The notes beneath the pieces were generated by a model, which searched no databases, was not told the DNA's origin, and saw only the letters and a program-made list of their open reading frames with translations. From Natrinema caseinilyticum (GTDB lineage Archaea > Halobacteriota > Halobacteria > Halobacteriales > Natrialbaceae), in the NCBI RefSeq assembly GCF_024227435.1, contig NZ_CP100445.1, positions 1,671,369 through 1,735,368 on the forward strand: a DNA stretch of 64,000 bases, given 5' to 3'. The position numbers and the translations under genes were made by a program. Shown here one piece after another: positions 19,425 through 20,823 of this stretch. The stretch's first letter is position 1. The number at the start of each line of letters is the position of its first letter.

Positions 19425-20207
19425 ATGGCCGACCCGGACGGGGAGTCGACTAACGAGTGGGAGTCGGATAAGTACGACGAGGGCCACTCCTTCGTCTTCG
19501 AGTACGGCGAAGGCGTCGTGGATCTTCTCGAGCCGGAACGGGGGGAACGGATCCTCGACCTCGGGTGTGGAACCGGCCACCTCACGGCGCGGATCTCCGA
19601 TTCGGGAGCGACTGCGGTCGGTCTCGACGCCTCGGACGAGATGATTTCGAAGGCTCGCGATACCTACCCCGAGTGCGAATTCGTTTGCGCGGACGCCCGC
19701 GACTTCTCGTTCGACGAGCCGTTCGACGCGGTGTTCTCCAATGCCGCACTTCACTGGATTCCGGACCAGGACGCCGTTCTCGAGTCGGTCGCCGACGCGC
19801 TCGATCCCGGTGGCCGGTTCGTCGCCGAACTCGGCGGGGCGGGTAACGTCGCGGCGATCGTCGACGCAGTCCGTGTCGAAGCAGCGGAACGCGGCTACGA
19901 CGTCGATGCCCCGTGGTACTTCCCGAGCATCGGCGACTACGCCTCGAAACTGGAATCGCACGGGCTCGAGACGCGATCCGCGACGCTCTTCGACCGACCG
20001 ACCGAACTCGAGAACGGGACGAACGGACTCGCGGACTGGCTCGAGATGTTCGGCGACAGTCTCCTCGCGCCGATCCCCGACGACGAACAGCCGTCGGTGA
20101 TCTCGGGGGTCGAGGACCGCCTCCGCGAGGACCTGTTTCAGAAAGGGACGTGGACCGCGGATTATCGACGACTTCGCGTCGTCGCCGCGATGTATAGTAG
20201 TCGTTGA
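19425..20207 (+). CDS. Class I SAM-dependent methyltransferase
   Basis: The product is 260 residues. Motif I is ILDLGCGTGHLTARI (about 41-55); an acidic residue ends the next strand in AVGLDASDEMI; post-motif regions VCADARDFSFDEPFDAVFSNAALHWI and LDPGGRFVAELGG complete a Methyltransf_11/trans-aconitate methyltransferase-like Rossmann fold. The C-terminal part (about 150-255) is the usual variable substrate cap. The substrate is unknown. The last five codons (MYSSR) and the stop codon are supplied by the left terminal repeat of a MITE at 20193, so the original C-terminus may have been longer or different. Confidence 0.92.
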   Translation: MADPDGESTNEWESDKYDEGHSFVFEYGEGVVDLLEPERGERILDLGCGTGHLTARISDSGATAVGLDASDEMISKARDTYPECEFVCADARDFSFDEPFDAVFSNAALHWIPDQDAVLESVADALDPGGRFVAELGGAGNVAAIVDAVRVEAAERGYDVDAPWYFPSIGDYASKLESHGLETRSATLFDRPTELENGTNGLADWLEMFGDSLLAPIPDDEQPSVISGVEDRLREDLFQKGTWTADYRRLRVVAAMYSSR

Positions 20208-20304
20208 AACGATTTACTCACCGCTCGCAGTGACGCGGCCAGCGAGTCTTCGCTGGCCGCGACTTCGCGAGCGGGGTGTGCACTGACTTTCAACGACTAC
20301 TATA
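20193..20304. mobile_element. MITE-like element with 17-bp terminal inverted repeats
   Basis: A 112-bp element starts TATAGTAGTCGTTGAAA and ends with its exact reverse complement TTTCAACGACTACTATA. Inside are two nested hairpins: CCGCTCGC ... GCGAGCGG around 20221, and GCGGCCAGCGA ... TCGCTGGCCGC with a tiny loop. No open frame is present. A clear target-site duplication is not visible. The left repeat overlaps the end of the methyltransferase gene. A decayed relative is at about 48666-48752. Confidence 0.8.
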
Positions 20305-20823
20305 GCGCTTCGGAACGCGGTCGACGAGTCGGATCGGCTCCGTTGCGATCGGCCCCGCCTTCCGAACCGTCTCCCTCGAGGGTCACGACTCGCGTCGATT
20401 CGTCTCGGCGTTCTTCAGGCGGTGCTCGAGGCCGCGGGCACCCGCAGTCGCGAGTGCGCCGTCCGCGGGGATGGAAAAGCGCGGGTGTGCCCGATCAGGA
20501 CTGCGTCGCACTCTTCAGAACGTTATCAGTGTCCGACTATAACCGCCTAAATTAGAGGGGGGAGGTTGGCGATGTGAACGAAATCGACCGGGTGGTGAGG
20601 CACCGGTCCTGTGTCCTCGCTTGCACTGATGACGATGTATACTCACACACGACCCACCGAAGGAATTTCGGATGGGCAGACCGATAAAACGTCCCGAGAG
20701 CCGCTGCATCGCGGTTTTATCGGATCACTCGAGCCGAAGGAGAGGTCGTCGCTCGAGGGTGTAACCGCGACGACAGGCGGGAAGACGGACCATGCCAGTG
20801 ACGGCTACCGGAGGCGGTCGCAG
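20305..20823. other. Intergenic region after the MITE
   Basis: No gene was recognised in these about 520 bp. An AT-leaning patch lies around 20520-20560 and could be a promoter for the small frame at 20824. Short frames present here lack haloarchaeal codon bias. Confidence 0.45.

Follow-up and report, generated by a model that had tools for sequence, protein, structure and literature searches.

We found that a methyltransferase gene in the window (the 64,000-nucleotide stretch of DNA analysed here) ends inside a MITE. The reading we favor, at a probability of about 92%, is that the MITE split the gene's own TAG stop codon, that the protein thereby gained the four residues YSSR, and that the same event recurs throughout the MITE's family. 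In the mechanism that we propose, the MITE would insert at the TA of a TAG stop, duplicating the TA (ATG TAG to ATG TA-[108 bp]-TA G), and the ribosome would read TAT AGT AGT CGT TGA, adding YSSR and stopping on the TGA of the terminal repeat. Insertions favor CTAG sites, whose central TA is duplicated and which can be provided by a TAG stop codon; both ends of the element offer a stop five codons in, in the frame opened by a split TAG or TAA. The event would recur across the family because of this CTAG/TA preference and the in-frame stop at both ends. The host would pay with four extra residues only, a low cost that would let such insertions persist.

The product of the gene matched Methyltransf_25 in a profile search (Table 1), and none of the 25 best of 41 NCBIfam matches to the methyltransferase query reached the cut-off. 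The C-terminus reads VVAAM-YSSR-TGA, with the stop lying within the left arm of the element. In the new tyrosine codon, TAT, the first two bases are the target TA of the old stop, and the remainder of 20193-20207 belongs to the element. The open reading frame bears out the initial annotation, according to which the left repeat encodes YSSR and the TGA of the methyltransferase.

Repeat search of the window showed that the 17-bp arms at 20193-20209 and 20288-20304 are a perfect inverted match and the sole matches in the window at up to three mismatches (0.01 expected from shuffles), and the nested hairpins between them fold at -74.2 kcal/mol (z -6.3), with none of 200 shuffles equally stable. 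The inverted repeats and inner hairpins of the initial annotation were thus confirmed. Its 112-bp boundaries stand if both TAs are included, but the mobile unit is 108 bp long (20195-20302) with 15-bp perfect terminal repeats, because the outermost TA on each side is the target duplication. Most copies start with TAGTAGTC and end with GACTACTA, with TA outside. The element is a non-autonomous IS630-related MITE, a known kind: it is short and non-coding, has inverted-repeat ends, and occurs as dispersed copies with target duplication and with empty sites, and it displays the TA duplication and CTAG preference of the IS630 type.

Table 1. Coordinates of the methyltransferase gene and of the inserted element in the window.
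Feature	Position	Strand	Basis
Class I SAM-dependent methyltransferase ORF, 260 aa, ends YSSR	19425..20207	+	ORF list; Methyltransf_25 E 1.1e-22; tail-less orthologues
New coding end TAT AGT AGT CGT TGA (Y S S R stop)	20193..20207	+	Sequence; empty-site comparison
Left copy of duplicated TA target	20193..20194	.	Copy comparison; empty-site comparison
MITE, 108 bp	20195..20302	+	Own-genome copies; matches in 24/29 genomes of genus
Left terminal repeat TAGTAGTCGTTGAAA; TGA 20205-20207 is the gene's present stop	20195..20209	+	Sequence; repeat search
Middle hairpin, 5' arm CCGCTCGC	20221..20228	+	Consensus fold, 30 copies
Inner hairpin, arms 20235-20244 and 20251-20260	20235..20260	+	Window fold; consensus fold
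Middle hairpin, 3' arm	20267..20274	+	Consensus fold, 30 copies
Right terminal repeat, perfect inverted copy of left	20288..20302	-	Repeat search
Right duplicated TA (20303-20304) and G (20305) completing ancestral TAG	20303..20305	.	Empty sites G004, G005

We investigated the end of the methyltransferase in relatives. The search gave some match in 29 of 29 genomes and a near-full-length orthologue in four besides the genome of the window, with identities of 88% (G005), 87% (G004), 80% (G027) and 66% (G020); G028 contained a short, broken piece of the gene. The protein ends with ...RRLRVVAAT in G004 and with ...RRLRVVAVR in G005, each followed by TAG, with ...RRLRVVARKIRR and then TAG, three residues farther on, in G027, and with ...MGDRLPHGD in G020, and all four ends are without YSSR. 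In G004 and G005, the flanking homology is uninterrupted across the TAG at the exact position of the element, where a single TA is found; the homology runs through the TAG, and the element therefore split that stop codon. Comparison of sequences in this way shows the stop-codon empty site, the added tail and the TA duplication. The view that insertion reshaped the protein end was upheld by G004, G005 and G027, which lack the element and end on TAG without YSSR, and the contrary pattern, element-free relatives with the same YSSR and stop, was not seen in these three genomes.

The genome-wide repeat search suggested in the initial annotation yielded 53 matches in the same genome, many of them the two orientations of one palindromic copy, and 27 distinct places were aligned. 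The 108-bp family had matches in 24 of the 29 genomes that we compared from the genus, and in most of its copies TA lies outside the element. In a sister family, 63 of 64 copies have 80 bp between the TAs and 59 of 64 have TA on both sides. Several further forms were observed. A short family in G015 (e.g. C1:578257-578340) has the ends TATAGTAGCTCTTGAA, from which a YSSS tail followed by a stop would be read. In G025, 80-bp elements are paired head to tail with a few bases between them (C49:27970-28144, C5:50920-51091 and C48:137695-137865), as if one had inserted at the TA beside the other. Matches in G018 and G019 (e.g. G019:C20:727376-727450) have both ends within ~75 bp and no match in the middle, and we read them as copies that lost the central hairpin; a place in the genome of the window (L061 5596-5620) resembles a still smaller remnant.

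To place the insertions relative to genes, we took gene calls from a codon-usage script that had been trained on the sequences analysed and reconstructed an empty site for every copy. From 186 copies of the 108-bp and 80-bp families of this one haloarchaeal genus (three sets of 77, 64 and 45), we removed eight without TA on either side, two of wrong length and one duplicate, leaving 175 insertions. At a calling threshold of 20, 130 of these were intergenic, 22 lay inside a called gene and 23 lay in a stop codon, the last count varying with the threshold from 18 to 25. As the 22 insertions inside called genes show, members of the family also occur outside harmless sites. Across the first two sets, stop-codon insertions numbered 18 of 131 with the threshold set to 12 and 12 of 131 with it set to 30; the corresponding counts for the third set, a replicate that was fetched later, were 7 of 44 and 6 of 44. 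The non-coding TA sites predict 4.0 stop-codon insertions among the 175. A first-pass estimate of enrichment, made against 13 of 590 non-coding TA sites of the window, was superseded by matching for sequence context, which removes much of it. All 24 gene ends produced by the 23 insertions (one insertion, L242, served a convergent pair) stop at the fifth codon, and their tails are YSSR (12), YSSH (5), YSSN (4) and, once each, YSSL, YSRR and NGSR; the recurrence, too, is shown by comparison. At L242 (G015:C1:750600-753700), a single CTAG insertion sits at a possible shared stop of two convergent called genes, both of which may have gained four-residue tails, YSSR and YSRR; the gene on the + strand scored only 39.

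We examined whether orthologues free of the element lack the tail. For the 14 strongly scored tail genes, the joined C-terminal pieces of 13 were searched in 12 genomes and the gene of the window was searched separately; the orthologue loci read were the 30 returned and three found earlier. Seven of the genes had element-free orthologues, at 20 loci in total, and the tail was present at none of the 20. Twelve of these loci end exactly at the predicted residue, and the other eight end from 5 residues shorter to 10 residues longer. For the remaining seven genes, none of the loci read was an orthologue free of the element, and these genes do not count as negative. An HD-domain protein provides the clearest example: four relatives end with ...CQL or ...CRL on TAG, and the L258 copy ends with ...CQL-YSSN-TGA. 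For two tail genes, the insertion is common to G014 and the tail persists there. At L227 and L353, an insertion shared by two genomes, the four residues and the stop were kept, and the tail of L353 has drifted to DSSS. By family match, the tail genes include an IF-2B/NUDIX protein, a second methyltransferase, a rhodanese/metallo-beta-lactamase-fold protein, a CAAX-protease-like membrane protein, a CoA transferase (L227) and a PGF-CTERM protein. In the last of these (L246 554-1516), the sorting domain covers residues 290-315 of 320 and YSSR follows the sorting signal, and the tail might be removed on processing.

The insertions could be concentrated in stop codons purely as a by-product of the choice of CTAG as target, the built-in stop and the survival of harmless insertions being irrelevant, an explanation to which we give slightly less than an even chance. 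Comparison of the sites revealed a strong preference, with CTAG at 75 of 132 insertion sites versus 154 of 8998 background TA sites; the copy in the window lies in GTAG instead. Haloarchaeal genomes contain few CTAG sites, about one per 4000 bases (PMC6471742), and a preference of IS630 for the TA in CTAG is on record (Tenzen and Ohtsubo 1991, cited in PMC2170065). Matching the flanking bases raises the expected number of stop-codon insertions from 4.0 to 10.5, and among CTAG sites only, the excess is weak, at 15 stop to 82 intergenic versus a background ratio of 6 to 100 (overall P 0.019, subsets 0.04 to 0.27). Target choice accounts for much of the stop-codon excess, but 23 insertions were observed against the matched expectation of 10.5 (P 6e-5), and the replicate set alone gave context-matched P values of 0.014 to 0.06, depending on threshold and margin.

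Other readings concern what the element or its tail may do. It is improbable that the element acts mainly as a terminator of transcription, or as a hairpin for mRNA processing, at the 3' end of the methyltransferase gene. The nested hairpin is very stable, and in the consensus fold of 30 copies, 8 of 28 pairs have changes on both sides in some copy, but a MITE is expected to contain palindromes, and covariation contributes little to the energy (-0.74 of -41.01 kcal/mol). A scan of 19900-20700 that models bacterial-type terminators found no site and there is no T-run after the hairpin, leaving the suggestion of the initial annotation that the hairpins may terminate transcription unsupported; in Rfam, no match reached the gathering score, the best being Xoo5 at 20.5 bits versus a cut-off of 50. 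On the terminator scan and the sub-cut-off Rfam score, the terminator or structured-RNA reading was rejected. Less likely still, and to our minds very hard to sustain, is the idea that the YSSR tail has a function of its own, for example as a tag for stability or interaction, and has been retained on that account. The same tail does appear on unrelated proteins, and the insertion shared at L227/L353 retains its four residues and stop in two genomes; the repeat sequence dictates the tail, however, and the drift to DSSS argues against a sequence-specific tag. A doubtful but somewhat better candidate is that the ends of this IS630/MITE lineage are under selection for a codon-five stop in the split-stop frame, with host stops as safe harbours. 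The fifth codon is TGA in the MITEs and TAG or, rarely, TAA in the IS elements, and the codon before it is variable; three different stops at one codon after a variable one are suggestive of adaptation of the built-in stop. The stop bases could, however, be no more than a part of the site that the transposase binds, and the stop was kept in 21 of 21 ends facing a stop-site gene, not clearly more often than in other ends (234 of 257). Our preferred reading remains that the MITE splits the stop codons of host genes and that translation re-terminates on its terminal repeat.

We looked for the element that may move the MITE. Six DDE_3 matches were found in the genome of the window, three of them within 1055-bp elements that have TA outside and ends such as TAGTATCCGTTAGAA. 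This 1055-bp IS630-family element recurs in other genomes and genera. The best IS630-family end, TAGTAGTCGTTAGAA (L210), is identical to the MITE end at 13 of 15 bases and differs at two, and CTA precedes the IS630-family elements of the same genomes. When the best pair of ends was forced at 51 IS630-family loci, a stop at codon five was present in 85 of 102 ends, a count that includes the 17 ends without it; these fall mostly at L200-L205, L213, L214 and L216, where the forced pair is probably not the 1055-bp element. The codon-five stop was not supported as a rule for all IS630 groups: in another group of G004 (L277-L279), the stop comes at the fourth codon at one end and is absent from the stretch examined at the other, and the remaining groups compared (L280-L296) are without the TA-flanked end type. 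We infer that the MITE was moved by an IS630-family transposase, of which that of the 1055-bp element is the likely candidate.

An autonomous element with the exact MITE end was not found in this genome or in relatives, and the parent transposase with the same ends that the initial annotation had proposed to seek is represented at closest by the 13-of-15 match. Searching this genome with the end pattern at up to two mismatches returned MITE copies, and the solo matches inspected were fragments or collapsed copies; by eye, no end pair at transposon spacing was seen in seven relatives and the listed part of 153 matches in G015. G015 and G018 contain MITEs and gave no DDE_3 match. At L124 of the genome of the window (C2:464004-464962), a 108-bp element lies ~360 bp past the end of an IS630-family element. 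In the element at L123 (935-1989, on C2), the IS630-family transposase is divided between two frames that overlap, one of 161 and one of 178 residues; because a second frame with 178 residues is found again in many genomes, programmed frameshifting is conceivable.

IS630 and ISY100, of the IS630/Tc1-mariner family, duplicate a TA target at insertion (PMC2170065). The MITE has this TA duplication and the CTAG preference in common with them but carries no transposase, and the splitting of a host stop with re-termination goes unmentioned for IS630 and ISY100 in the relevant parts of that source. For IS870, generation of a stop codon at a CTAG target is reported (Fournier 1993, cited in PMC6471742); the stop that it completes is that of its own ORF, whereas the MITE splits and replaces the stop of a host gene. 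RUP of pneumococcus (107 bp) is similar to the MITE in size, in its TA target and in having ends like those of an IS630 element, IS630-Spn1, but the passages on it describe it as intergenic or in IS elements and mention no uniform C-terminal tail (PMC2229807, PMC3049150). Repeats that supply gene ends are already known, according to the accounts cited here: BOX provides the stop codon in 36 of 58 overlapping genes (PMC3049150), RU-2 extends a protein by four residues (PMC2759123) and QMITE2 extends one by 33 residues (PMC5896051). Like the MITE, these repeats overlap the 3' ends of genes and supply a stop or an extension, but the portions of these papers that treat them describe no defined stop-codon insertion yielding the same tail in many genes. 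MITEs of Haloquadratum walsbyi, likewise haloarchaeal, have only their ends in common with a transposon, sometimes with no intact transposase in the genome, and the corresponding section describes no stop-codon insertion (PMC3119063). A literature search that reached a minority of subscription journals returned no description of stop-codon insertion with a uniform tail, and we found no account of a MITE that recurrently interrupts stop codons in this way, with a new stop after four codons.

The mechanism proposed here would amount to a simple rule by which a selfish element enters genes at almost no cost, adding the same residues to unrelated proteins. It would tie the long-known CTAG target preference to stop codons and predict which genes are affected, and it would account for odd C-termini of the YSSR type in annotations of haloarchaea. 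If selection favored the built-in stop, the MITE would offer a rare example of transposon ends that evolved to spare the reading frames of the host.
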